NCBI GenBank assembly: GCA_009786125.1
Contig: WQTU01000130.1
Span: 1-41,159, forward strand
DNA length: 41,159 nucleotides
Direction: 5' to 3'
Source of the DNA: Spirochaetota bacterium
GTDB taxonomy: Bacteria; Spirochaetota; Spirochaetia; CADAEX01
Both the position numbers and the translations under genes were made by a program. Position 1 is the stretch's first letter; the number at the start of each line of letters is the position of its first letter. Shown here piece by piece: positions 8,094 to 41,159 of this stretch. The notes under the pieces are model-generated. The model was not told the DNA's origin. It saw only the letters and a list, made by a program, of their open reading frames with translations, and searched no databases.

Positions 8094-8669
8094 ATGGAAA
8101 ATAAAAACAAATTTGGAAAAAAAATTAAAGCTATAAGGGAAACAAGAAATATTTCTATAGAAGATCTTGCGGAAAAGGCAAGTCTTGCTGTCGAAGATGT
8201 AAAAAAAATAGAAAACGGGGAGCTGGTTCCAGGTCTTGCTCCTCTTATAAAGCTTGCAAGAACTATGGGCGTAAGGCTCGGCACTTTTATGGATGATCAT
8301 GAGAATATTGGTCCTGTGGTAAGCAGAAAAAATGAAAAAAAGAGCATTACGAGATTTTCGAATAAAGATACGCCTTTGAGTTCTGACCTTGATTTTTACT
8401 CGCTTGCTGCGAACAAGGCGGGCAGGCACATGGAGCCGTATGTGATTGATATATATCCGTCATCGGAAAAGGGGTATAAATTATCTACCCACGAAGGGGA
8501 GGAATTTATATATGTACTCCAGGGAGAAATTGAAATTATCTACGGCAAGGATGTTTATACGTTAACCGAAGGGGACAGTATTTACTACGATTCTATAGTA
8601 AAACACCATCTTCATTCCAAGGGCGAAACTACTGCAAAAATACTTGCGGTTGTGTATGCGCCTGTTTAA
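8094..8669 (+). CDS. XRE-family regulator with C-terminal cupin domain (first copy)
   Basis: The 191-aa product has an N-terminal XRE helix-turn-helix (about residues 5-62, with IRETRNISIEDLAEKAS) and a C-terminal cupin barrel (about 110-190). The cupin shows the STHEGEEFIYVLQGEIE metal or ligand-site stretch and HHLHS. Such fusions usually sense a small molecule and control neighbouring catabolic genes. It lies 12 bp before an acyl-CoA synthetase and has a strong AAGGAG upstream. The ligand is unknown; an acid or acyl-CoA handled by the next gene is an inference. Confidence 0.87.
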   Translation: MENKNKFGKKIKAIRETRNISIEDLAEKASLAVEDVKKIENGELVPGLAPLIKLARTMGVRLGTFMDDHENIGPVVSRKNEKKSITRFSNKDTPLSSDLDFYSLAANKAGRHMEPYVIDIYPSSEKGYKLSTHEGEEFIYVLQGEIEIIYGKDVYTLTEGDSIYYDSIVKHHLHSKGETTAKILAVVYAPV

Positions 8670-8681
8670 AGGAGACGCGGG

Positions 8682-10328
8682 ATGTTTGAAATAACTTTGA
8701 GTAAACTTCTTCGCCAGAAGGCTCAGGAATATCCGGACAAGGAATTCATTGTTTACTCTGACAGGGATTTAAGGTTTACATACAAGCAATTTAACGAAAG
8801 GGTGAGTAATCTTGCAAAGGGTTTTCTTTCTATTGGGGTAAGGAAGGGCGACCACCTTGGAATATGGGCGACGAATGTTCCTGACTGGCTTACGATTATG
8901 TTTGCTGCTTCGCGTATCGGCGCGGTTTCTGTTACTGTAAATACGAACTATAAGCTTCACGAGCTTGAATATCTTGTTAAGCAGTCTGATATTACGACTC
9001 TTTGTCTTGCAGATGGTTTTAGGGACAGTGATTATGTAAAAATGATTAATGAGCTTGTGCCGGAAATTAAGGAGTCTGAGAGGGGGCATCTTAAGAGCAG
9101 CAAATTCTCATTTCTTAAAAATGTTATTTTTATTGGTCCGCAAAAGCATCGCGGAATGTTTTCGCTGGCTGAATTAATTCTTGTGGGCTCACACACGAGT
9201 GACGATGAAATGCTTGAGGTTGAGAATTCGATAGATCATCATGATGTTGTTAATATGCAATACACATCCGGAACAACGGGTTTTCCTAAAGGGGTTATGC
9301 TTACCCATTACAATATTATAAACAACGGGTTTTCCATTGGGGAGCGCCAGAAATTTACAACAGCGGAAAAGCTTTGTCTGCCTGTTCCTCTTTTCCACTG
9401 TTTTGGCATTACTCTTGGGGTTATGGCGATTCTTACGCATGGCGCGACTCTTGTAATACTTGAGACTTTTGATCCGCTGCTGGTGCTTGCTTCTGTGCAG
9501 AAGGAAAAATGTACTGCGCTTTATGGTGTGCCAACGATGTTTATCGCAGAGCTTAATCATCCGATGTTTGATATGTTTGATCTTTCGAGTTTGCGTACCG
9601 GCATTATGGCTGGCTCTCCCTGTCCGATGGATGTTATGCGGAAGGTAATAGACAAGATGTATATGAAGGATGTTACGATTGTCTTTGGTCTTACTGAGTG
9701 TTCGCCGGGCATGACGCAGACAAGAGCCGACGACCCTGTTGAGAAAAAGGTTGGCACGGTTGGCACGGAATTTGACGGAGTAGAAGTTAAGGTCCTTGAT
9801 CCGGAAACAGGGGAGGAGTGTCTTCCGGATGTCCCCGGCGAGCTTTGCTGCAGGGGTTACAATGTAATGAAGGGCTATTACAAAATGCCGGAAGAGACTG
9901 CGAGAATAATCGACAAGGACGGCTGGCTTCATTCAGGTGATATTGGCATTAAGGACAAAGATGGGTTTTTCTCTGTTACGGGAAGAATCAAAGATATGAT
10001 TATTCGGGGAGGAGAAAATATCTATCCCCGCGAAATTGAAGAGTTTCTCTATTCTATGAAGGGAATAAAAGATGTTCAGGTTGCAGGAATTGCAGATGAA
10101 AAATATGGTGAAGTTACAGGGGCATTTATTATTCTTGATGAAGGAGTCAAGCTTTCGGAAGAAGATGTAATTGATTATTGCAGAGGAAATATTTCTCGCT
10201 TTAAAATTCCTCAATATGTGTTTTTTGTTGATTCATTCCCAATGACTGGAAGCGGAAAAATCCAGAAATACAAGCTGCGAGAAATGGGTAATGAGCTTGT
10301 AAAAAAAAGGAGCGAAAATGAACGATAG
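8682..10328 (+). CDS. AMP-forming acyl-CoA synthetase (fatty-acid/medium-chain type)
   Basis: This 548-aa ANL-superfamily ligase activates a carboxylic acid with ATP and CoA. It contains the P-loop [13 protein letters not shown], the adenylate motif [11 protein letters not shown], the hinge-region [19 protein letters not shown] and the C-terminal [12 protein letters not shown] with the catalytic Lys. It resembles FadD-like medium/long-chain synthetases, but the chain length is not deducible. It follows the first XRE-cupin gene and overlaps the second by 11 bp, so all are probably cotranscribed. Confidence 0.88.
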
Positions 10329-10872
10329 TATTAAAATGATTGCAGAAAGGCTTAAGGGTCTGCGGGAAATTATGGAAATCTCTGTTGAAGAAGCTGCTGA
10401 AACATGCGGGATTTCTCTTGAAACTTATGTTGAATATGAAAAAGGCGAAAAAGATATACCGGTAAGCGTACTCTACAGTATGGCGAATGCTTATGATTTT
10501 GAACTTACAACGCTTCTTACAGGAGAAGAGCCTCTTATGAATAGTTACTCTGTAACAAGAAAAGGAAGAGGAATTGTTGTAGACCGCCGGGAAAGCTATA
10601 AGTATCAGGCTCTTGCGGGTAACTTTAAGGGAAGAAAGGCAGAGCCGTTTATTGTTACTGTAGAGCCAAAAGAAACAGATAAAATAAATTTGCATGGTCA
10701 CAATGGGCAGGAATTTAATTATATTCTTGAGGGCAGGCTTTTGATTGTAATTGATAAAAAAGAATTGGTTCTTGAAGAAGGCGATTCTATTTATTTTGAT
10801 TCCACAAAACCGCATGGAATGAGAGCGCTCGATGGAAAAAATGCAGTATTTTTTGCATTAATACTTGAATAG
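10318..10872 (+). CDS. XRE-family regulator with C-terminal cupin domain (second copy)
   Basis: This 184-aa paralogue of the gene at 8094 has an N-terminal helix-turn-helix ([20 protein letters not shown]) and a cupin domain with [16 protein letters not shown] and a later KPHGM. These retain the His/Glu ligands expected of a metal-binding cupin. It overlaps the preceding synthetase by 11 bp and sits 14 bp before another synthetase. The two regulator-ligase pairs suggest duplication of a regulator-enzyme unit. Confidence 0.86.
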
Positions 10873-10886
10873 GATAGGAGACTTTA

Positions 10887-12548
10887 ATGTCTATAATTGG
10901 AAAACTTACAACAAAACTTGATTTTTCTTCTTATGAAGATTTTAATAAAAATTTTAGGGTAAAAGTTCCTGAGAATTTTAATTTTGCATACGATGTTGTT
11001 GATGTTCTTGCACAAGAGCAGCCGAATCTCAAAGCAATGGTATGGACAAATGAAGATGGGGATTACAGGGAATTTACTTTTGGCGAAATGAAGGAATACA
11101 GCGACAAAGCTGCATCTTTCTTTTCTTCGCTTGGAATAGGCAGGGGCGATATGGTAATGCTTGTTCTTAAGAGAAGGTATGAGTTCTGGTTTTCGATACT
11201 TGCTTTGCACAAGCTAGGCGCAATATGTATTCCGGCAACGCACATGCTTACTTATGATGATCTTGTTTACAGAAACAATGCTGCAAGCGTTAAGATGATT
11301 GTTGCTGTTGACAATGATGAGATTATAAAAAATATAGAGCTTTCAAAGGAAAAATCTCCAAGTCTTGAGAAGCTTGTAATATGCGGGAAGGAAAAGGATG
11401 GCTGGGCTAATTTTAACAAGGGAATAGAAGATGCAGCTCCGTTTAAAAGACCTACCGGCAAAGATGCGTCTGTAAACAGCGATGTATCGCTTTTATATTT
11501 TACGTCCGGAACAACGAATTTTCCAAAGATGGTAACGCATGATTTTACATATCCTCTTGGTCATATTACAACAGCCTATTTCTGGCAAAGAGTAAGAAAA
11601 GGCGGGCTTCACTATACGGTTGCAGATACAGGCTGGGGAAAAGCAGTGTGGGGCAAGCTATATGGACAGTGGATATCTGAATGTGCTGTTTTTGTATATG
11701 ATTATACTGCGAAATTTAATCCAACGCTGCTTCTTGAAATGCTGGAAAAGCATAAAATAACATCGTTTTGCGCGCCGCCTACAATTTATAGGTTTATAAT
11801 AAGAGAGGATTTGTCAAAGTATGATCTTTCTTCTCTTGAATATTGTACAACAGCAGGCGAGCCTCTTTCCGAAGAGGTCTCCAATGCGTTTCACAAGCTT
11901 ACGGGGCTAAAACTTGCAGAGGGTTTTGGGCAAACAGAAACAACACTGTCTCTTGCAAATTATGAATGGATGAAGCTGCGGCCCGGCTCAATGGGAAAAC
12001 CTTCCCCAAGTTATCATGTAACTCTTTTATCTCCTGATAATGTTATATGTGAAGATGGGGAAATCGGGGAAATTGTTATTAATATAAAAGGCGAGCGGCC
12101 TGCAGGGCTTTTTACAGGGTATTACAGGGATGAAGAGAAGACAAATTCTGTAATTGTTAATGGCATTTATCATACCGGCGACATGGCGTGGCGGGATGAA
12201 GACGGATACTACTGGTTTGTGGGCCGGTCGGATGATGTAATAAAATGTTCGGGATACAGGATTGGCACTTTTGAAGTAGAAAGTGTTCTTATGGGACATC
12301 CTGCGATTGTTGAATGTGCGGTAACCGGGGTTCCAGATGAAATTCGCGGACAGGTTGTAAAGGCAACAGTAGTTCTTGCAAAAGAATATAAGCCTGGAAA
12401 TGATGAGCTTGCGGAAGATATAAAGCGATATGTTAAAAAAGTAACAGCTCCGTATAAATACCCCAGGATTGTTGAATTTGTTGATGAACTTCCGAAAACA
12501 ATCAGCGGAAAAATTCGAAGGGTTGAATTGAGGAAAAAAGATAACTAG
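10887..12548 (+). CDS. AMP-forming acyl-CoA synthetase (acetyl-CoA/medium-chain MACS-like)
   Basis: This 553-aa ligase has the motif FTSGTTNFPKMV, the form seen in the acetyl-CoA/medium-chain synthetase group rather than in FadD. It also has EGFGQTETTLS, YHTGDMAWRDEDGYYWFVGR, the DDVIKCSGYRI segment and the catalytic C-terminal KTISGKIRR. The VADTGWGKAVWGKLYGQW stretch is typical of the MACS branch. Together with the first synthetase it could activate acetate, isobutyrate, isovalerate, 2-methylbutyrate or similar acids. It ends the operon and is followed by a terminator. Confidence 0.88.
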   Translation: MSIIGKLTTKLDFSSYEDFNKNFRVKVPENFNFAYDVVDVLAQEQPNLKAMVWTNEDGDYREFTFGEMKEYSDKAASFFSSLGIGRGDMVMLVLKRRYEFWFSILALHKLGAICIPATHMLTYDDLVYRNNAASVKMIVAVDNDEIIKNIELSKEKSPSLEKLVICGKEKDGWANFNKGIEDAAPFKRPTGKDASVNSDVSLLYFTSGTTNFPKMVTHDFTYPLGHITTAYFWQRVRKGGLHYTVADTGWGKAVWGKLYGQWISECAVFVYDYTAKFNPTLLLEMLEKHKITSFCAPPTIYRFIIREDLSKYDLSSLEYCTTAGEPLSEEVSNAFHKLTGLKLAEGFGQTETTLSLANYEWMKLRPGSMGKPSPSYHVTLLSPDNVICEDGEIGEIVINIKGERPAGLFTGYYRDEEKTNSVIVNGIYHTGDMAWRDEDGYYWFVGRSDDVIKCSGYRIGTFEVESVLMGHPAIVECAVTGVPDEIRGQVVKATVVLAKEYKPGNDELAEDIKRYVKKVTAPYKYPRIVEFVDELPKTISGKIRRVELRKKDN

Positions 12549-12580: not shown

Positions 12581-12613
12581 AAGCCTGTCTTCTATCTGGG
12601 GACAGGTTTTTTT
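12581..12613 (+). terminator. Intrinsic terminator of the acyl-CoA synthetase operon
   Basis: AAGCCTGTC (12581-12589) pairs with GACAGGTTT (12601-12609), including one G-T pair, and a T-run follows. It lies about 30 bp after the synthetase stop codon. Confidence 0.85.
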
Positions 12614-12753: not shown

Positions 12754-12802
12754 TTGACAGAATCTTAAAAAAAGGGTTGATTTATTAGTTTAGCTAACTA
12801 AT
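12754..12802 (+). promoter_or_regulatory. Putative promoter and FabT-type operator of the fatty-acid operon
   Basis: A perfect -35 (TTGACA, 12754-12759) is followed at 17 bp by a weak -10 (TTGATT). Immediately downstream lies an imperfect palindrome at 12784-12802, ATTAGTTTAGCTAACTAAT, with perfect 6-bp arms. Its position around the expected transcript start, in front of a fabT-like remnant and the fab genes, fits a MarR-family operator. The assignment to FabT is inference. Upstream, at 12688-12716, there is also a TGTGAA-A-TTCACA palindrome of unknown role. Confidence 0.5.
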
Positions 12803-12830: not shown

Positions 12831-13033
12831 ATGCCTTTAAATGAAGAACTAAACGAGTTATTGGTAGACACTTTTAATGTGATCCTGAAAAGCGAAGAAA
12901 AAACCTTAAAGCTGGCAGGAACACAGCCATATGATTCAAGGAATTACCGAACAAATAACAAGTAGAGGAAAAAGAGTTGTTATATAAAGCTATATTAAAG
13001 TTAAACAGATTTTTTAAAAAGGCGGTGAGGTAA
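12831..13033 (+). pseudogene. fabT: Remnant of a FabT-like MarR regulator, winged helix deleted
   Basis: The N-terminal piece reads LNELLVDTFNVILKSEEK, matching the first helix of clostridial-type FabT/MarR regulators. It has an AAAGGA 7 bases before the ATG at 12831; another ATG lies at 12813. The frame then runs into unrelated residues and stops at 12963-12965. The typical C-terminal helices are readable just downstream in other frames: HSHMIQGITEQI (frame from 12922), then EEKELLYKAILKLNRFFKK ending at 13033. About 70-80 residues between the pieces, including the whole DNA-binding domain, are missing. A full-length member is about 145 aa. It sits exactly where fabT sits in Firmicutes operons. 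Confidence 0.7.
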
Positions 13034-13036
13034 AGA

Positions 13037-13996
13037 ATGAGCTTTTCAATATTAGGTACTGGCTGCGCTTTGCCCGAGCTTGCAGTTAAAAATGAGGATC
13101 TTTCAAAAATTATGGATACCTCCGACGAATGGATTGTGAAAAAATCGGGCATTAAAGAGCGGCGCATAGTTTCGCATGAATCGTTAACCGATTTGTCGGA
13201 AACAGCAGCGCTGAATGCGCTTGCAGACGCTAATGTCAAGGCTCAGGAAATAGATTTGCTTATTTACGCAACGCTTATGGGCGATACGGTTACGCCGTCA
13301 ATGGCGTGCGTTGTTGCCGGAAGGATTGGCGCTGTATGCCCGGCGTTTGATTTAAACGCAGCCTGTTCCGGGTTTGTTTATGCAATGGATATTGCGGCAG
13401 GGTACTTTGCGCGCAAGAAAGTAAAAAAAGTGCTTATCATTGGCGGAGAGCACCTTAGCCGGCATACTGACTGGGCAGACCGGGGAACCTGCGTATTGTT
13501 CGGAGACGGCGCAGCAGCAGCTGTACTTGGCGAAGGAGACGCGCTCTGTTCGCTGCATATCGCTTCAACGCCGAATAAAGAGTTTCTTTCTCAAAATTTT
13601 ATTGGCGGTGAAAGCCCCTTTTGCAAGCGCGATTACGGGCAGCCTTATATTCGCATGAACGGGCAAGAGGTTTATAAGTTCGCGGTTAACGCGATTTGCA
13701 ATGACTTAAAATATGTAATGGAAGAAGCTCGCTTAAGCGAAAAAGATATAGATCATTTTTTACTGCATCAGGCGAATATACGAATTATCGATGCAGCAAT
13801 AAAAATGCTCGATTTTCCGAAAGAGAAATTTTTAAACAGTATTGAGCAGACCGGCAATGTTTCGGCTGCTTCGATTCCGATATTGCTTGATAAGGGAAAT
13901 CGCAGCGGGCGATTCAAAAAAGGCGATACTTTGGCAATAAGTGCGTTCGGAGCCGGTCTTACAACAGGATCAGCTATCATTCGATGGACAAAATAA
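13037..13996 (+). CDS. fabH: 3-oxoacyl-ACP synthase III (FabH)
   Basis: FabH starts fatty-acid chains by condensing an acyl-CoA primer with malonyl-ACP. The 319-aa product has the triad Cys110 (NAACSG), His244 (LLHQANIR) and Asn274 (TGNVSAAS), essentially at the canonical spacing, and the C-terminal GAGLTTGSA. GGTGAGG lies 6 bases before the ATG. It heads the intact fab/acc operon. Primer preference (acetyl versus branched acyl-CoA) cannot be read from sequence, but acyl-CoA synthetases and a branched-chain-type oxidoreductase lie just upstream. Confidence 0.95.
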   Translation: MSFSILGTGCALPELAVKNEDLSKIMDTSDEWIVKKSGIKERRIVSHESLTDLSETAALNALADANVKAQEIDLLIYATLMGDTVTPSMACVVAGRIGAVCPAFDLNAACSGFVYAMDIAAGYFARKKVKKVLIIGGEHLSRHTDWADRGTCVLFGDGAAAAVLGEGDALCSLHIASTPNKEFLSQNFIGGESPFCKRDYGQPYIRMNGQEVYKFAVNAICNDLKYVMEEARLSEKDIDHFLLHQANIRIIDAAIKMLDFPKEKFLNSIEQTGNVSAASIPILLDKGNRSGRFKKGDTLAISAFGAGLTTGSAIIRWTK

Positions 13997-14039
13997 TGAG
14001 AAAAAGAATTATAAAATTTTTAAAAAAAGGAGATAAAAA

Positions 14040-14264
14040 ATGAGTGCAACAGTAGAAAAAATTGTAAAAGTTTTGGTAGAGTACAGGGATTTTGACGCTG
14101 CCACAGTTACGCGCGATACAACTTTCGGCGATCTGGGGCTCGATTCACTTGACACCGTAGACCTCGTAATGAAACTTGAGGAAGAATTCGGCATGGAAAT
14201 TCCGATGACCACAGACATTAAAACTATTGGAAACCTTGCAGATTTTATTGACGGAGCGAAATAA
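14040..14264 (+). CDS. acpP: Acyl carrier protein
   Basis: This is a 74-aa ACP with the phosphopantetheine attachment site GLDSLDTVDLV at Ser36, the usual acidic helix II and a strong AAAGGAG ribosome site. It carries the growing acyl chain between the Fab enzymes. Its stop codon directly abuts the fabK start. Confidence 0.95.
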   Translation: MSATVEKIVKVLVEYRDFDAATVTRDTTFGDLGLDSLDTVDLVMKLEEEFGMEIPMTTDIKTIGNLADFIDGAK

Positions 14265-15218
14265 ATGAACAAAGACGTCTTTAAAGACAACAGCTTTTGC
14301 AAAATGCTCGGGATAGAATATCCTGTGATTCAAGGCGGAATGGCGTGGATTGCTGATGCGGGTCTGGCTGCTGCAGTATCGAACGCAGGCGGTCTGGGTT
14401 TAATTGCTGCGATGAGTTCAAACGCGGAGCAGCTTCGCGCGGAAATTCGGAAAGCTCAAAAATTAACAGACAAGCCGTTCGGCGTAAACATTATGCTGAT
14501 GAGCCCGTTTGCGGACGAAGTGGCGCAGGTTGTAGTTGAAGAAGGCGTAAAAATTCTGACGACAGGCGCCGGCAGCCCTGCGAAGTATATGAGCGCCTGG
14601 CTTGGTGCGGGTATAAAAGTATTGCCGGTTGTGCCGAGCGTAGCGTATGCAAAGAAGATGCAGCAGAGCGGGGCAATAGCAATAATCGCGGAAGGCTGCG
14701 AAGCGGGCGGGCATATCGGAGAACTTACGACAATGGCGCTCGTGCCGCAAGTGGTTGACGCAGTTGAGATTCCGGTTGCGGCGGCCGGAGGTATCGCGGA
14801 CGGCAGAGGAATTGCAGCAGCATTTATGCTCGGCGCCCGCGCTGTACAGATTGGTACTCGCTTTCTGGTTGCCAGAGAGTGCAACATTCATCAAAATTAC
14901 AAAGACCTTGTAATAAAAGCGGGCGACATTGAGACAATGGTAACAGGCCGGCGCACGGGGCATCCGGTACGCGCCTTAAAGACTGAGTTTTCGCGCAGCT
15001 TTGTAAAGATCGAAGCTGATCCAAATGTAAGTAACGATGATATCGCAAAGCTTGGGAGCGGCGCATTGCGCGCGGCAGCGGTGGACGGCGATAAAGCAAA
15101 GGGCAGTTTTATGGCCGGGCAAATCGCAGGATTGGTTAAAAAAGAGCAAACTTGCGCCGAAATGATTTCGGAGATGTTTAATGAATTTGAAACAGTAATA
15201 AAATCGGTAAAACTATGA
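14265..15218 (+). CDS. fabK: Enoyl-ACP reductase II (FabK, FMN-dependent)
   Basis: The 317-aa product belongs to the nitronate monooxygenase-like FMN barrel family. It shows GGMAWIADAGLAAAVSNAGG at the N-terminus, EGCEAGGHIGE and AAGGIADGRGIAAAFMLGA. Its position between acpP and fabD is the classic Firmicutes arrangement, which identifies it as FabK rather than a nitronate monooxygenase. It carries out the final reduction of each elongation cycle; the family is insensitive to triclosan. It overlaps fabD by 4 bp (ATGA). Confidence 0.93.
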   Translation: MNKDVFKDNSFCKMLGIEYPVIQGGMAWIADAGLAAAVSNAGGLGLIAAMSSNAEQLRAEIRKAQKLTDKPFGVNIMLMSPFADEVAQVVVEEGVKILTTGAGSPAKYMSAWLGAGIKVLPVVPSVAYAKKMQQSGAIAIIAEGCEAGGHIGELTTMALVPQVVDAVEIPVAAAGGIADGRGIAAAFMLGARAVQIGTRFLVARECNIHQNYKDLVIKAGDIETMVTGRRTGHPVRALKTEFSRSFVKIEADPNVSNDDIAKLGSGALRAAAVDGDKAKGSFMAGQIAGLVKKEQTCAEMISEMFNEFETVIKSVKL

Positions 15219-16072
15219 ATGATAATAAAAATTTAGCGCTTGTATTTCCGGGGCAGGGCGCGCAGTTTCCCGGCATGGGCAAAGAACTTTACGAAACTTC
15301 ACAAGCTGCGCGCAAGATTTTTGATGCAGCGGAAGCGATACGCAAAGGGACGATAACGCAATGTTTTGAAGCAACAAAAGAAGAGTTGTCGCAAACAAAT
15401 AACACTCAACCCTGTATTTTTACAGTTTCGCTTGCGTATGCAGCGAGCCTGGAAGAGCAAGGCAAACGCGCAGCTGTAACTGCAGGATTCTCTGTCGGAG
15501 AAGTTGCAGCGCTTACATACGCGGGAGTTTTTTCATTTGAAGATGGGTTTAAAGCAGTTATAAAACGCGCAGAACTTATGAGTGCATGTGCAGCAAAAAC
15601 AAAAGGCACAATGGCAGCAGTATTAAAACTGGATGCCGGAAAGGTTGAAGAGCTGTGCAAGGAGCATGGGGTTTTTGCTGTTAATTATAATTGTCCGGGG
15701 CAGATTGTGGCGAGCGGCGAAGAGAACGCGATGGCAGCTTTTGTTGCGAAGGTGAACGCCAGCGGCGGACGCGCTATGCCTCTGGCAGTTAGCGGCGCGT
15801 TCCATTCTCCGCTTATGACAGAAGCTGCGGACGAGTTCCGCAAATATCTGGAAAGCATCAGTATATCAGCGCCGAAAATATCAGTATATGCGAATCTTAC
15901 TGCAAAACCTTACGAAGGAGATATAAAAGATATTTTCGCAAAACAGATAAAAAGCCCGGTGCTGTGGGAACAGGCCGTAACGAATATGCTGGCACACGGA
16001 ATTACAGAATTTATTGAAGCAGAACCCGGCAAAGTCTTAACAGGATTAATCAGTAAAATCAGGAGTAAATGA
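15215..16072 (+). CDS. fabD: Malonyl-CoA:ACP transacylase
   Basis: The 285-aa product transfers malonyl groups from CoA to ACP. The nucleophile elbow GFSVGE, the FPGQGAQFPGMG N-terminal motif and the catalytic His in GAFHSPLM are present. It overlaps fabK and fabG by 4 bp each, indicating tight translational coupling. Confidence 0.95.
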   Translation: MNDNKNLALVFPGQGAQFPGMGKELYETSQAARKIFDAAEAIRKGTITQCFEATKEELSQTNNTQPCIFTVSLAYAASLEEQGKRAAVTAGFSVGEVAALTYAGVFSFEDGFKAVIKRAELMSACAAKTKGTMAAVLKLDAGKVEELCKEHGVFAVNYNCPGQIVASGEENAMAAFVAKVNASGGRAMPLAVSGAFHSPLMTEAADEFRKYLESISISAPKISVYANLTAKPYEGDIKDIFAKQIKSPVLWEQAVTNMLAHGITEFIEAEPGKVLTGLISKIRSK

Positions 16073-16815
16073 ATTATATGATGTTAAAAGGAAAAGTTGT
16101 ATTTATAACAGGCGGCTCGCGCGGTATAGGAAAAACAATTGCGGAAGCGTTTGCGAAAAACGGCGCAGACATTGCACTTAATCATTTAAACGATGCGGAA
16201 GCAGAGGAAATCCGCGCGCTTATTTTGAAAGAGGGCGTGCGTTGTGAGACATATTACTGCGATGTAAGTGATTTTGCTGCATCAAAGGAAATGGTAGACA
16301 AAATCCTGAAGGACTTTGGCCGCGTGGATGTTTTGATTAATAACGCCGGGATTACGCGCGACGGATTGATAGCTACGATGAGCGAAGCTGATTTCGATGC
16401 TGTTATAAATATAAATCTTAAAGGTGCATTTAATATAACAAAACATCTGTTTTCGAATTTTATCCGTTCTAAAACCGGCGGCGCAATTATTAATATTGCA
16501 AGCGTTGTCGGTCTTATGGGCAATGCAGGGCAGGCAAACTATGCTGCAGCAAAAGCAGGGCTTATAGGGCTCACAAAATCTACTGCAAAAGAGCTTGGCA
16601 GCCGCAGCATAACCTGTAACGCTATTGCTCCGGGTTTTATAGAGTCGCCCATGACAGCAGCTTTGCCGGAGGAAGTCAAGCAAAAATATCTTAGTGCGAT
16701 TCCGCTTAAAAAGTTCGGAAGCGCGGACAACATTGCCGAACTTGCAATATATCTGGCAAATGCAAAATATATAACCGGCGAAGTAATTAAAATTGACGGG
16801 GGTTTGTACATCTGA
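16069..16815 (+). CDS. fabG: 3-oxoacyl-ACP reductase (FabG)
   Basis: This 248-aa short-chain dehydrogenase has the NADPH motif TGGSRGIGK, NNAGITRDG, the catalytic Ser region (NIASVVGLMGNAGQ) and YAAAKAG. It reduces 3-oxoacyl-ACP. The ATG at 16069 overlaps fabD by 4 bp; an ATG at 16078 (MMLKGK) is a possible alternative. It shares one base with fabF. Confidence 0.95.
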   Translation: MNYMMLKGKVVFITGGSRGIGKTIAEAFAKNGADIALNHLNDAEAEEIRALILKEGVRCETYYCDVSDFAASKEMVDKILKDFGRVDVLINNAGITRDGLIATMSEADFDAVININLKGAFNITKHLFSNFIRSKTGGAIINIASVVGLMGNAGQANYAAAKAGLIGLTKSTAKELGSRSITCNAIAPGFIESPMTAALPEEVKQKYLSAIPLKKFGSADNIAELAIYLANAKYITGEVIKIDGGLYI

Positions 16816-18044
16816 TGAAAAGAGTAGTTATTACAGGCATCGGCGCTGTTTCGCCTTTGGGAAACGATGCAAAAACTTATTGGGAAAACATTAAAGCAGG
16901 CAAGTGCGGAATTGATTTTATTACGAGATTTGATACTTCGGATTTTAAGGTAAAAATCGCTGCCGAGGTGCGCGGATTCGATCCGTTGCTTTATATTGAC
17001 AAAGGCGAAGCGCGCCGCACGGACTTATATACTCAATATGCGATTGCTGCGAGCGCAGAAGCAGTGGCTGACAGCGGACTGGCAGATATAGTAGACCCTG
17101 AAAGATTCGGCGTATACTTTAGCTCCGGCATCGGCGGTCTTAATACTTTTTACGACGAATCTGTAAAAATACATACCGGCGGAGCAAGCAAAGTATCGCC
17201 ATATTTTATCGCGATGATGATTATAAATATCGCTGCGGGCACAATCGCGATCCGGCATAAGGCGCAAGGTCCGTCGCTGCCGGCTGTTACTGCATGTGCT
17301 TCTTCGACTAACTCGATCGGCGAGGCGTTCCGGGCAATTAAGTTTGGTTATGCAGATGCAATTATTGCAGGCGGCAGCGAAGCGACGATTCATCCGCTTC
17401 CGATAGCCGGGTTTACGAACTGCATGGCATTAAGCAAACGAAATCTTCCGAATGAAACCAGCGTGCCGTTCGATAAGCGGCGCGATGGCTTTGTTATGGG
17501 CGAGGGCGGCGGCGTCTTGATACTCGAAGAATATGAACATGCGAAAAAGCGCGGCGCAAAAATTTATGCAGAAATTGCCGGGTACGGAAATACATGCGAC
17601 GCGCACCATGTAACTGCGCCGTCGCCCGACGGAAGCGGCACGGCAAAAGCTATTGCAGACGCAATAAAAGAAGCAGGGATACCAGGCGATAATTTATATA
17701 TTAACGCACACGGGACAAGCACGCCGCTTAACGATAAATCCGAAACCGGCGCCATCAAGCTTGCCCTGGGGGAAAAAGCAAAGACAGCGCTTGTAAGCTC
17801 AACAAAGTCCATGATTGGGCATTGTCTGGGCGCAGCAGGCGTATTGGAAGCTATAACTGTGATTAAAGCTTTGGAAACAGGAGTTGTTCCGCCAACAATT
17901 GGCTATAAAGAACCAGACCCTGAATGTGATTTAGACTATGTGCCGAACAAGGCGAGAGAGCATCAGATAAATGCTGCTATTTCGACATCCCTGGGATTCG
18001 GCGGGCACAATGCTTGCATCGCATTAAAAAAATGGAATGAATAA
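16815..18044 (+). CDS. fabF: 3-oxoacyl-ACP synthase II (FabF)
   Basis: This 409-aa elongating condensing enzyme has the Cys-His-His triad in TACASSTNSIGEA, NAHGTSTPLND and MIGHCLGAAG, plus the C-terminal GFGGHNAC. It performs all elongation condensations and can influence membrane fluidity. It starts on the last base of the fabG stop (TGATG). Confidence 0.96.
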   Translation: MKRVVITGIGAVSPLGNDAKTYWENIKAGKCGIDFITRFDTSDFKVKIAAEVRGFDPLLYIDKGEARRTDLYTQYAIAASAEAVADSGLADIVDPERFGVYFSSGIGGLNTFYDESVKIHTGGASKVSPYFIAMMIINIAAGTIAIRHKAQGPSLPAVTACASSTNSIGEAFRAIKFGYADAIIAGGSEATIHPLPIAGFTNCMALSKRNLPNETSVPFDKRRDGFVMGEGGGVLILEEYEHAKKRGAKIYAEIAGYGNTCDAHHVTAPSPDGSGTAKAIADAIKEAGIPGDNLYINAHGTSTPLNDKSETGAIKLALGEKAKTALVSSTKSMIGHCLGAAGVLEAITVIKALETGVVPPTIGYKEPDPECDLDYVPNKAREHQINAAISTSLGFGGHNACIALKKWNE

Positions 18045-18062
18045 AAAAGGACGTGAAAAATT

Positions 18063-18527
18063 ATGGATGTAAATAATATCAAAACGCTCGCAAAGCTTTT
18101 GGATGAATCGGGATTGTCTGCAATAGAAATAATCGAAGGTAAAACCAAGATTCGGCTGGAACGAAATATCGTTCATAATACAGTTGTGCATCAGGCGCCG
18201 GCTGCGCCCGGAAATTCAGATGCAGGGTTGTCGGCGGCGCAAGCACAAACGCCGGCATCGATTAGTTCCGATAACGCAATCGATTTTAATAATGTTTCTG
18301 AATTTCGTTCGCCGATTATCGGCGTATTTTGCGCTGCGCCAACACCCGGCGCAAAGCCGTTCGTGCAAGTCGGAGATCGCGTTAAAAAAGGCGATGTATT
18401 ATGCATCATCGAAGCGATGAAAGCCCTGAATGAAATTACCTCTGACCGCGACGGTGAAATCGTCGATATTTGTGTGCAGAACGGACAGGTTGTCGAGTAT
18501 TCGCAGGTATTATTTAAAATCTTTTAA
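18063..18527 (+). CDS. accB: Biotin carboxyl carrier protein of acetyl-CoA carboxylase
   Basis: The 154-aa product has an N-terminal segment, an Ala/Pro-rich linker (about residues 42-70) and a C-terminal biotinyl domain with EAMKALNE; biotin would attach at Lys120. It has the thumb-like insert ([17 protein letters not shown]) typical of bacterial AccB. Confidence 0.94.
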
Positions 18528-18544
18528 AGAAAAGGGAAAGAGAT

Positions 18545-18940
18545 ATGAATCTGGAAGAAATCAAAAAAATTCTGCCGCACAGAGAACCAATGCTATTGCT
18601 GGATGAAGCATGGGAAGGCGGCGGTGCATACAAAGTTAAAGGCGATGAATTTTTTTTGCAAGGACATTTTCCTGGCAATCCGGTGGTGCCTGGCGTAATT
18701 TTATGCGAGATTATGGCACAGAGCGCTTGCGCTTCTTTGCATGGAAAACTTGATGGAAAAACTCCCTATTTCACAGGGATTGACGGCGTTCGAATTCGCA
18801 ACAAGGTTGTTCCCGGAGATACGTTTAAAACAGAAGTTGTAATAAAAACCCAAAAGGGTCCGTTTTATTTTATCGACGCGAAAGGATTTGTAGATGGCAA
18901 GTTGTGTATCAGCGGCGCACTTTCGTTCGCTGTTGTATAA
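18545..18940 (+). CDS. fabZ: 3-hydroxyacyl-ACP dehydratase (FabZ)
   Basis: This 131-aa hot-dog-fold enzyme has the catalytic His in LQGHFPGNPVVPGV and the acidic residue in LCEIMAQ. It dehydrates 3-hydroxyacyl-ACP. Its place between accB and accC matches Firmicutes operons. The N-terminal ILPHREPMLLLDE is typical of the family. Confidence 0.95.
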   Translation: MNLEEIKKILPHREPMLLLDEAWEGGGAYKVKGDEFFLQGHFPGNPVVPGVILCEIMAQSACASLHGKLDGKTPYFTGIDGVRIRNKVVPGDTFKTEVVIKTQKGPFYFIDAKGFVDGKLCISGALSFAVV

Positions 18941-18953
18941 GGATTAAAAAAAT

Positions 18954-20291
18954 ATGTTTTCAAAAATATTGATTGCAAACCGCGGCGAAATCGCTGTGCG
19001 GATTATTCGTGCGTGTAAAGAAATGGGAATCGCCACTGTTGCTGTTTTTTCGGAAGCTGACCGCAACGCATTGCATGTAAACCTGGCGGACGAAAGCTAT
19101 TGTATTGGAGCTGCGCCTGCTGCAGACAGCTATTTAAACATGTCTGCAATTATTACAGCTGCGGTTAGCTCCGGCGCTTCGGCCATTCATCCTGGGTATG
19201 GCTTCTTGTCCGAAAACACAAAGTTTGCTGCGTTATGCGAAAAATGCAACATAACATTCATTGGTCCGGGGCCGGAAGTTATCGAAATAATGGGCGATAA
19301 GGATTCTGCGCGGCGCACCATGAAAGAAGCCGGCGTTCCGGTTATACCAGGCACCGACATTCTTAAAAACACAGAAGAAGCGCTGGAAGCTGCTCGTGAG
19401 ATTGGGTTTCCGGTATTACTAAAAGCGCGTTCCGGCGGCGGCGGACGGGGCATAAGGCTTGTTGAAAAAGAAGAAGATTTGGAACACGCTTTTAATGTGG
19501 CGAGCGCCGAAGCTATTGCCGCATTTTCCGATGGCGCAATGTATATGGAAAAGTTTTTATATCCTGTTAAGCATGTCGAGGCGCAGGTTTTGTGCGATAA
19601 ATTTGGAAACGCATTGTGTCTGGGAGAGCGCGAGTGTTCGGTTCAGCGAAGGAATCAAAAGCTTATAGAAGAGAGCCCGTCTCCGGCTGTGTCGGAAGAA
19701 CAGCGCAAGCAGATTATCGAAGTGTCAAGAAAAGCTGCGCTTGCTTCCGGGTATGTAAATGCAGGAACAATTGAATTTTTACTTGCGGATGACGGTGAGT
19801 TTTATTTTATGGAAATGAATACGCGGCTCCAGGTTGAGCACGGCGTAACAGAAATGGTTACCGGCATCGATATTGTAAAGTGGCAGATTCGCATTGCTGC
19901 GGGTTTACCGCTTACTTTTAAGCAAGAGGACATTCTTTTAGACGGCAGCGCGATCGAGTGCAGGATAAACGCGGAAAACCCGCGCCAAAATTTCCGCCCT
20001 TCATGCGGGAAAATCGAGCTTTTGCACTTTCCTGCGGGTCCCTGGGTGCGCGTGGACTCAGCTTTATATCAAAATTATATTGTGCCGCCGTTCTACGATT
20101 CGCTGGTGTCGAAAATCCTTGTGTTTGCCAAAACGCGCGAAGAGGCTATCCGAAAAATGCGTGCTGCATTGTGCGAACTTGTTATCGAAGGTATTGACCA
20201 CAACGCAGATTTTCTTTGTGAAGTTATGTCGATGGAAGAATTTGAAAACGGCAGCTATCACGTTGATTTGTTATCTAAAAAAAAGGATTAA
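18954..20291 (+). CDS. accC: Biotin carboxylase subunit of acetyl-CoA carboxylase
   Basis: This 445-aa ATP-grasp enzyme has the N-terminal ILIANRGEIAVRIIRACKE, the glycine-rich SGGGGRGIRLV, the KHVEAQVLCD strand and the EMNTRLQVEHGVTE catalytic segment. It carboxylates the biotin on AccB. Length is normal for the family. Confidence 0.96.
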   Translation: MFSKILIANRGEIAVRIIRACKEMGIATVAVFSEADRNALHVNLADESYCIGAAPAADSYLNMSAIITAAVSSGASAIHPGYGFLSENTKFAALCEKCNITFIGPGPEVIEIMGDKDSARRTMKEAGVPVIPGTDILKNTEEALEAAREIGFPVLLKARSGGGGRGIRLVEKEEDLEHAFNVASAEAIAAFSDGAMYMEKFLYPVKHVEAQVLCDKFGNALCLGERECSVQRRNQKLIEESPSPAVSEEQRKQIIEVSRKAALASGYVNAGTIEFLLADDGEFYFMEMNTRLQVEHGVTEMVTGIDIVKWQIRIAAGLPLTFKQEDILLDGSAIECRINAENPRQNFRPSCGKIELLHFPAGPWVRVDSALYQNYIVPPFYDSLVSKILVFAKTREEAIRKMRAALCELVIEGIDHNADFLCEVMSMEEFENGSYHVDLLSKKKD

Positions 20292-20294
20292 TTT

Positions 20295-21155
20295 ATGGCC
20301 TTCAAGATTTTTAAAAACCCCAACAATGCGCCGGAAATAAAAGGCTCAGAACTGCAAAAACCAAAGCTTCCTGACGGCGAGCTTTGCACTGTTTGCCCTG
20401 CTTGCAAAAAAAGCTTTTTCCACAGTGATTTGGCAGAAAACTGTTTTGTTTGTTTAAAATGCGAACATCATCATCGTCCCGGCGCGCGTGCGCGGATAAA
20501 AATGATAACAGACAAAGGAAGCTTTAAAGAACTCTTTGCGGAGTTCTCGTCGAAAAACATAATCGGGTTTCCGGACTATGGACAAAAGCTAAAAGCAGCG
20601 ATGGAAGCAAGTAACGAAAAAGAAGCTGTGGTTTGCGGCGCTGCGCAGATTAACGGAATCAAAGTAGCTATGTTCGTTATGGACAGCAATTTTATGATGG
20701 GCAGCATGGGCACGGTGGTTGGCGAAAAAATCACGCTGTTGTTCGAGTATGCGCTTAAACAGAAGCTGCCTGTTGTGGGCTTTGCGGTTTCGGGCGGCGC
20801 GAGAATGCAGGAAGGCATTCTCTCTTTGATGCAAATGGCAAAAACAAGCGCTGCAGTCAAGCGCCATTCGGATAAGGGATATTTATATATTGCTGTTTTG
20901 ACCGATCCGACAACAGGCGGCGTTACCGCAAGCTTTGCGATGCAGGGCGATATTATTCTGGCTGAGCCAAAAGCGCTGATTGGCTTTGCCGGACCGCGCG
21001 TAATCGAAGATACAATCCGCCAAAAGCTGCCGCCGGGTTTCCAGACCGCGGAATTTTTGCTGGAAAAAGGTTTTGTGGACAAAATTGTTCCGCGCAAAGA
21101 ACAAAAAGCAGTATTAACAACCATTTTGAAGCTGCACAGGAGGAACGCCGGATGA
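20295..21155 (+). CDS. accD: Acetyl-CoA carboxylase carboxyltransferase beta subunit
   Basis: The 286-aa product has the N-terminal zinc ribbon (CPACKKSFF and CFVCLKCEHH) and the crotonase-like carboxyltransferase core (VSGGARMQEGILSLMQMAK, DPTTGGVTASFA, GFAGPRVIEDT). It transfers carboxyl from biotin to acetyl-CoA together with AccA. It overlaps accA by 4 bp. Confidence 0.96.
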   Translation: MAFKIFKNPNNAPEIKGSELQKPKLPDGELCTVCPACKKSFFHSDLAENCFVCLKCEHHHRPGARARIKMITDKGSFKELFAEFSSKNIIGFPDYGQKLKAAMEASNEKEAVVCGAAQINGIKVAMFVMDSNFMMGSMGTVVGEKITLLFEYALKQKLPVVGFAVSGGARMQEGILSLMQMAKTSAAVKRHSDKGYLYIAVLTDPTTGGVTASFAMQGDIILAEPKALIGFAGPRVIEDTIRQKLPPGFQTAEFLLEKGFVDKIVPRKEQKAVLTTILKLHRRNAG

Positions 21156-21910
21156 ACCCATATGAAAAAGTATTGGCAGCGCGAAAACCTGCGCGGTCGA
21201 CAGGAATGGATTTTATTAAAGCTATTTTTGATGAGTTTATTGAGCTGCACGGCGATCGCAGGTTTTCCGATGACAGCGCGATGGTAACAGGAATCGCTCG
21301 GTTAAACGATATCGCCGTTACTGTAATTGCACAGGAAAAAGGGCGCGATGTAAAAGATAAAGACTACAGGAATTTCGGAAGCTCGCATCCTGAGGGTTAT
21401 CGAAAAGCGCTTCGCCAAATGAAATTGGCTGAAAAATTCCAGCGCCCCATAATCTGCTTTGTGGATACTTCCGGAGCATATTGCGGCATTGGCGCAGAGG
21501 AGCGAGGCCAAGGTCAGGCGATTGCCGAAAATCTTGCAGAGATGTCAAGTTTAAAAACTCCGATTGTTTCGGTTTTGATCGGTGAAGGCGGTTCGGGCGG
21601 CGCGCTCGGAATTGCGCTCGCGGACGAAGTCTGGATGCTCGAAAATTCAGTCTATTCGGTTATTTCGCCCGAAGGCTGCGCGAGTATTCTTTGGAAAGAC
21701 AGCAAAAAAGCCGAGTTGGCAGCAGAAAGCTTAAAGTTAACAGCAAAGGATTTATTAAGCTTTGGCGTGATTGAAAAAATAATTCCGGAAGAAGAAGGTT
21801 TATTTGGAGGATTAAAAAATGATTTGATCGAAGTTATCAAAAAATTGCAGAAATTGTCCGATAAAAAATTGCTGGAGAACCGGTATCAAAAATTTCGAAA
21901 AATCAAGTAG
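21152..21910 (+). CDS. accA: Acetyl-CoA carboxylase carboxyltransferase alpha subunit
   Basis: The product is 252 aa, shorter than the roughly 320-aa proteobacterial form because the N-terminal helical part is reduced. It has DFIKAIFDEFIELHGDR, FVDTSGAYCGIGAEERGQGQ, GEGGSGGALGIALADEV and SPEGCASILWKD. It is the partner of AccD and the last enzyme gene of the fatty-acid operon. Confidence 0.95.
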   Translation: MNPYEKVLAARKPARSTGMDFIKAIFDEFIELHGDRRFSDDSAMVTGIARLNDIAVTVIAQEKGRDVKDKDYRNFGSSHPEGYRKALRQMKLAEKFQRPIICFVDTSGAYCGIGAEERGQGQAIAENLAEMSSLKTPIVSVLIGEGGSGGALGIALADEVWMLENSVYSVISPEGCASILWKDSKKAELAAESLKLTAKDLLSFGVIEKIIPEEEGLFGGLKNDLIEVIKKLQKLSDKKLLENRYQKFRKIK

Positions 21911-21922
21911 GAGAAAGAACGA

Positions 21923-22735
21923 ATGATCACAATTGTCAGCGACAGTTCTGTCGCGTTAACCAAAAAAGCAGCCGAAGATTTAGGGATTCAAATCGTTCCT
22001 ATGACCTATACGCTCGATGGCCGCACGTTTTACGATTATTTTACAGATGTGAGCGAGCCGCTTGAACGTGTGTGCAATTCTCCTTGCACAACCTCCAGGC
22101 CAGTGCCCGCTGCTTATGCAGAGTGCTTTCAAAAGATTATTGCGCAAGGAAACAAGGTATTGTGCCTTACAACTTCATCGCGCCTTTCGGGGTCTTTTTC
22201 AAGCGCTTCTATTGCAGCGAAAACACAGAGCGAACAAAATATCCGCGTTGTCGATACGCGCACAACAGCTGGCGGTATGCGCTTTTTGGTTGAGCGCGCA
22301 AAGGAATTAATTGCACAAAACAAAACACTTGATGAAATTGCAGCAACGCTTGAGAAAGAGCGCGACAATATTATCCTTGCGTTTTCTGTTGAAAATATGG
22401 AGCCATTAAGACGCAGCGGAAGGCTTGGCTTTGTCCGGCAATCAGTTAGTACAATTTTAAATATTCGTCCTATTTTAGAGTGCCGCGACGGAACTTTTAT
22501 CGGCTGCGGATTCATAAGAGGAAAACATCAGCAGGTTGAAAAGCTTTTTGAGTGTATTCCAGCCAATGCCAGAAAAATCGCTGTGCATCATTTAAGGAAC
22601 GAGGACTCCGCAAAAACTCTTGCAGATTTGATTGTGCAAAAATTCCCGGGAATTTTACCCGTGATTTCGCCCATAGGACCTGTGCTTGCGACTCATACAG
22701 GGATTCCAATGATTGCAGTTGTGTGGAGCTTGTAA
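21923..22735 (+). CDS. DegV family fatty-acid-binding protein (FakB-like)
   Basis: The 270-aa product has the DegV hallmarks: N-terminal VSDSSVAL, CTTSRPVPAAY, the TTSSRLSGSFSSA fatty-acid carboxylate site, RRSGRLGFV and a C-terminal HTGIPMIAV. DegV/FakB proteins bind a fatty acid for phosphorylation by FakA, feeding exogenous chains into lipids. No FakA gene is in this window. It lies 12 bp after accA and shares the CGN-rich codon style of the operon, so it probably belongs to it. Confidence 0.88.
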   Translation: MITIVSDSSVALTKKAAEDLGIQIVPMTYTLDGRTFYDYFTDVSEPLERVCNSPCTTSRPVPAAYAECFQKIIAQGNKVLCLTTSSRLSGSFSSASIAAKTQSEQNIRVVDTRTTAGGMRFLVERAKELIAQNKTLDEIAATLEKERDNIILAFSVENMEPLRRSGRLGFVRQSVSTILNIRPILECRDGTFIGCGFIRGKHQQVEKLFECIPANARKIAVHHLRNEDSAKTLADLIVQKFPGILPVISPIGPVLATHTGIPMIAVVWSL

Positions 22736-40753: not shown

Positions 40754-40930
40754 CATTTTTTTAAAAAATTATTTTTTTGTTTTTTTACACTATGTTGTAA
40801 TGAGATAACTTTTTTCATGCGTTTGGCGGAATATTTAGTAAAATTTTACTTGTATAATTCCAAATAAGACTGATAAAATACCATACTAATGAATTTTGAA
40901 CAACAAGCTGTGGCACAAGCGCACAGCAAC
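40754..40930. other. AT-rich spacer upstream of rex
   Basis: Poly-T/A tracts are followed by a plus-strand TATAAT (40853-40858) and an ATG at 40889. That ATG opens a 41-codon frame running through the AAGAC tandem repeat (five KTRQD units) and stopping at 41012-41014. No Shine-Dalgarno or homology supports a gene. Confidence 0.35.
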
Positions 40931-41005
40931 AAGACAAGACAAGACAAGACAAGACAAGACAAGACAAGACAAGACAAGACAAGACAAGACAAGACAAGAC
41001 AAGAC
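40931..41005. repeat. Pentanucleotide microsatellite (AAGAC)15
   Basis: Fifteen perfect tandem copies of AAGAC (75 bp). The unit length is not a multiple of three, so copy-number change shifts any frame that reads through. One plus frame beyond it stays open to 41150. Confidence 0.98.
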
Positions 41006-41101
41006 ATTATGTAGCCTAACATCACCGTGTCAAGCACTCTATAGTTTATTTTCTTCGATATTATACCTTTTATTTACTCAAAAAAGTTGCCTAATAAGTT
41101 T

Positions 41102-41159
41102 GGGCAGGTTTTATATATTTCTGCCCTTGAGGGCGGTTAATCAAACATGATTAGCTGCC
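41102..41159. other. Paired stem-loops at the right edge
   Basis: GGGCAG (41102-41107) pairs with CTGCCC (41121-41126). GGCGGTTAATC (near 41132-41142) pairs with GATTAGCTGCC at the window end, allowing two G-T pairs. On the minus strand a frame ending QLIMFD-stop (stop at 41139-41137) enters from outside the window, so this could be the 3' end of a gene plus its terminator. Evidence is thin. Confidence 0.3.

Follow-up and report, generated by a model that had tools for sequence, protein, structure and literature searches.

The 41,159-nucleotide stretch analysed here (the window: contig WQTU01000130.1 of the Spirochaetota bacterium assembly GCA_009786125.1) carries an intact FASII operon in which fabH, fabK, fabD, fabG, fabF, accB, fabZ, accC, accD, and accA all gave NCBIfam matches, and in which acpP, without an NCBIfam match at the 1e-20 cut used, was named from its sequence (Table 1). 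Directly upstream of the operon, at 8094-12548, are two consecutive gene pairs, each consisting of an XRE-cupin regulator and an AMP-dependent acyl-CoA ligase, and the terminator-like hairpin that follows the upstream ligase gene is predicted to delimit the fab transcription unit on its upstream side. The region of interest, 12831-13033, lies between this hairpin and fabH (13037-13996) and ends 4 bp upstream of the fabH ATG.

Table 1. Coordinates of the features at and around the fab locus, numbered from the first nucleotide of the window
Feature	Position	Strand	Basis
XRE-cupin regulator, pair 1	8094-8669		
Acyl-CoA ligase, pair 1	8682-10328		
XRE-cupin regulator, pair 2	10318-10872		
Acyl-CoA ligase, pair 2	10887-12548		
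Terminator-like hairpin after upstream acyl-CoA ligase gene	12581-12609	+	Consensus scan, 12 pairs and T tail; prediction
-35 box TTGACA, ancestral fabT-fabH promoter	12754-12759	+	6/6; TTGACA at homologous place in 10/10 relatives
Altered -10 position TTGATT	12777-12782	+	3/6 match to TATAAT
Retained FabT-type operator ATTAGTT-N5-AACTAAT, apparently orphaned	12784-12802	+	Core exact once in genome
Predicted fabT pseudogene, N-terminal helix piece (ELNELLVDTFNVILKSEEKTLK)	12831-12914	+	N model 21.6 bits; model residues 4-29
Predicted fabT pseudogene, weak helix-5 piece (HSHMIQGITEQIT), third frame	12922-12963	+	Collinear, 5 bits; residue 115 of the model onward
Predicted fabT pseudogene, C-terminal helix piece (EEKELLYKAILKLNRFFKKAVR, stop)	12965-13033	+	C models 21.8-23.5 bits; model residues 129-147
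Intact FASII operon fabH-acpP-fabK-fabD-fabG-fabF-accB-fabZ-accC-accD-accA	13037-21910	+	Open frames; family matches
DegV/FakB-type gene	21923-22735	+	TIGR00762 217.8 bits; FakB1 model 88 bits (cut-off 350)

FASII operons of the Firmicute type begin with fabT, the gene for a MarR-family, acyl-ACP-responsive repressor. A first-pass annotation made from the letters of the window had recognized the first and last helices of a MarR/FabT protein at 12831-13033, spread over three frames. Read directly, frame A (12831-12962) begins with MPLNEELNELLVDTFNVILKSEEKTLKLAG and is 44 AA long, its open frame from 12831 continuing to a stop that ends at 12965, and frame C (12959-13030) reads QVEEKELLYKAILKLNRFFKKAVR, again followed by a stop. 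The C-terminal peptide VEEKELLYKAILKLNRFFKKAVR ends at 13033 and is in another frame than the MPLNEELNELLVDTFNVILKSEEKTLKLAG peptide.

To place these pieces, HMMs of the N-terminal, C-terminal, and winged-helix portions and of the full-length protein were constructed from 10 intact FabTs encoded upstream of fabH, with the window left out. Among 1693 six-frame segments of the window, the first piece was the best match to the N model (21.6 bits, runner-up 6.0) and the second piece the best match to the C model (21.8 bits, runner-up 6.9), the two being in the correct order and orientation relative to FabT, and when the region was shuffled 4000 times under a first-order Markov model neither score was reached, the top shuffles giving 10.3 and 11.1 bits. 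The full-length model placed residues 4-29 on 12837-12914 and residues 129-147 on 12965-13021, and a third frame aligned residues 115-135 with 12922-12984 at 5 bits, a collinear match that is not significant alone. The first and last helices of the annotation were thus recovered, and of its three frames the two holding the end pieces stood, while the third depends on the collinearity of a weak middle piece. The winged-helix sub-model gave no match in 12831-13033, in agreement with the earlier statement that this domain is gone, and the remnant lacks model residues from about 30 to 114, some 85 codons that include the winged helix. Both the N- and C-terminal FabT-type dimerisation helices are present in the remnant, but in different frames.

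Scans of the two scraps alone against Pfam and NCBIfam gave no match, because the scraps are too short, and the FabT identification therefore hangs on the profiles of close relatives, which matched both ends in the translated frames. This silence of the general databases is the one point in favor of reading the pieces as chance or unrelated helices at a site where fabT never stood, an explanation to which we assign practically no weight and which is refuted by the shuffles, by the first rank and correct order of both pieces among the window's segments, and by the presence just upstream of the clade's own FabT operator, described below.

Among fabH loci gathered from 60 related whole genomes and from GTDB genomes, 10 had an intact gene of the MarR type, about 150-175 codons long, just upstream of fabH, mostly abutting it directly. 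Seven of these (L004-L010) come one from each of the seven genomes (G004-G010) of a sister genus belonging to the same family; the other three are Bacillota loci (L035-L037), the three best FabH matches among the Bacillota records, each with fabT before fabH. The annotation's claim that the position before fabH is that of fabT is therefore borne out in relatives of the window as well as in Bacillota. For the intact proteins, FabT was the best NCBIfam family, with scores of 88-103 bits that fall short of the curated cut-off (200), the best PDB match was the FabT structure 6jbx (4.1e-29), and the winged helix was present in all ten. The distance from the start codon to fabH was 454-488 bp in nine of these loci and 585 bp in L036, as against approximately 206-213 bp in the window, which is about 250 bp below that of most intact relatives. 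In about 20 other Bacillota loci, including L098, L079, L052, L094, and other Lachnospiraceae and Eubacterium, fabH does not follow a FabT-like gene but closely precedes one, which lies at about +900 to +1450 relative to the start of fabH.

Judged from its sequence, the window copy is a fabT pseudogene and not a functional member of the FabT family, and the coding frame at 12831-13033 can yield no DNA-binding FabT, because a deletion of about 85 codons has taken the winged helix and frame changes have split the rest. An improbable alternative is that the genome has an intact fabT and that assembly or binning left the contig short of about 250 bp and with frame errors, as might be suspected of a draft assembly of 139 contigs in a region that contains long A runs. 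However, a clean loss of about 85 codons together with at least two frame changes, in a setting where the flanking genes are all open, does not resemble a single homopolymer slip, and a fabT fragment was not found elsewhere in the genome.

The 44-codon frame is open and preceded by AAAGGA 7 nt upstream of the ATG at 12831, so that a working N-terminal microprotein, or alternatively an RNA leader, could be proposed for the remnant; we consider either to be very improbable. With the C-terminal dimer helix out of frame the dimer core cannot form, and a structured RNA leader was rejected on a folding z of -0.93 and the lack of any Rfam match above threshold.

The origin of the operon was investigated with a maximum-likelihood FabH tree of 61 rows, in which the window joined the FabT-first clusters of the Bacillota and the sister genus with support of 100/99. 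FabH from two same-genus genomes and from the class formed a group of its own, separate from that of the window. The tree placement makes transfer of the operon from a Bacillota-type source well supported as a reading of the sequences, and the FASII operon would have come horizontally with a Bacillota-type, FabT-first cluster, as the annotation's view of an operon that had arrived from elsewhere supposed. Within the FabT-first group the window was not closest to the sister genus; its nearest neighbor was L036 (93/89), with both branches long. The annotation had further stated that the repressor was lost after this arrival. That the remnant can still be read makes this order of events likely, but the case for it is weaker than claimed because a close intact donor or sister copy of fabT was not found among the collected fabH loci. 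Elsewhere in the FabT-first clade, two loci from MAGs labelled Bacteroidales (L049:3001-3945 and L068:3001-3945) had neither fabT nor the operator upstream of fabH, and possibly represent another transfer with fabT loss.

The window keeps the -35 box TTGACA of the ancestral fabT-fabH promoter. In the intact relatives, TTGACA is followed after 16-17 nt by a good -10 box, by the palindrome TTAGTT-N5-AACTAA, and by fabT; the palindrome was exact at nine of the 10 intact loci and had one mismatch at the tenth, and the exact core was found at the fabT promoter in all seven sister-genus genomes. In the window the operator is intact at 14 of 14 arm positions, extended to ATTAGTT and AACTAAT, and at the homologous distance from TTGACA, and its core (12785-12801) is the sole exact copy in the genome, the exact core being absent from both same-genus genomes searched (G001 and G003). 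In contrast, the -10 box, which matches TATAAT at five or six of six positions in all 10 intact relatives, matches at only three in the window. The weakness of this box may be compensatory, or it may indicate transcription from a different start. An operator that had gone unused for a long time would not be expected to be perfect in both arms, which may mean that the loss was recent or that the site has another user.

Searches for such a user covered the whole genome, rated 99.2% complete. The FabT profile had no other match at E <= 1e-3, and there was no match to the FapR model NF003359. Of the proteins matching PF01047 (MarR) and PF12802 (MarR_2), two were, from reading their sequences, large ATP-binding HTH proteins, one was an HTH protein of 220 AA, and one was LexA-like, and the idea that a second MarR, FabT, or FapR of this genome had taken the place of the lost repressor was accordingly rejected. 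Because the FabT, MarR/MarR_2, and FapR searches all gave none, the operator is shown, at the level of families and from sequence, to lack any recognisable MarR- or FapR-type protein that would bind it.

It is nevertheless conceivable, if unlikely, that another regulator of the same genome still uses the operator, so that fabT is dead and the operon is controlled in trans. The intact arms at the homologous place would be explained in this way, and the two XRE-cupin regulator genes are nearby; yet no MarR-type repressor is left in the genome, we know of no binding of XRE-cupin proteins to MarR palindromes, and a recent loss accounts equally for the intact site. A slightly less doubtful but still speculative idea is that the operator was kept on purpose, either because the orphan site passed to a regulator from a different family or because decay of the -10 box replaced the feedback as a fixed compensation.

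Based on these data, we hold with considerable confidence that 12831-13033 is a fabT pseudogene, which would leave an acquired FASII operon without FabT feedback and an operator without a recognisable binder. With the repressor lost, probably after the arrival of the operon, the intact enzymes would be transcribed without acyl-ACP feedback through FabT, either from the old promoter with its weakened -10 box or from another start. The annotation had suggested that the operon was left constitutive or under other control; constitutive expression is plausible but less firm than was stated: the operator is still perfect, although the genome has no FabT, MarR, or FapR candidate and the -10 box is altered.

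In the fabT-first FASII operons of Lactobacillales, the gene for the MarR-family repressor is located directly before fabH and an operator palindrome is present in the promoter (PMC13046290). The window has the same fabT position, a promoter palindrome, and a gene set similar to that of S. pneumoniae, E. faecalis, and L. lactis, but its repressor gene is destroyed, and its operator is TTAGTTN5AACTAA as compared with the pneumococcal ANTTTGACTGTNAAATT (as quoted in PMC8406281). The sister genus and the three Bacillota loci share with the window the FabH clade, the operator, and the TTGACA spacing. They retain both a FabT of about 150 AA, winged helix included, and a -10 box of good quality, neither of which the window has.

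Loss of fabT is plausibly tolerable, because its deletion in enterococci, streptococci, and lactococci raises transcription of the operon 2-5 fold and leaves growth unaffected (PMC13046290). Those engineered mutants likewise have a FASII operon without its repressor, whereas the loss in the window is natural, is in a distant host, and is accompanied by an altered promoter. No natural loss of this kind was apparent from the titles and abstract openings of the papers retrieved on fabT and pseudogenes, and a literature search on orphan sites found no report. In sum, fabT is here a natural pseudogene and its operator apparently an orphan, with parts and a process of known kinds; the case is clear, clean, and useful, but modest and not surprising. 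Its value is as a snapshot of a transferred core operon shedding its feedback regulator with the operator and all enzyme genes kept, for which the ten relatives with intact fabT make a before-and-after comparison possible, and the fate of the -10 box raises the idea that promoter weakening can compensate for lost repression. The clade-specific operator TTAGTTN5AACTAA can also be used to find further FabT regulons and losses. In one sister-genus genome a second exact copy was observed away from fabT (G010:C80:74950-74966), possibly marking a further FabT target.

At the other end of the operon, the DegV/FakB-type fatty-acid-binding gene begins 12 bp past accA and is likely the last operon gene. 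The window's genome has no other DegV match, DegV was without a match in ten family members, and FakA/YloV had no match in either the window's genome or those ten, so the gene is possibly a second orphan of the transferred operon. The absence of FakA as the cause of the FabT loss found no support, since the sister-genus genomes that keep FabT are also without a FakA match. Near the contig end, at 40896-41150, the window contains a short tandem repeat that translates as repeated TRQDK.
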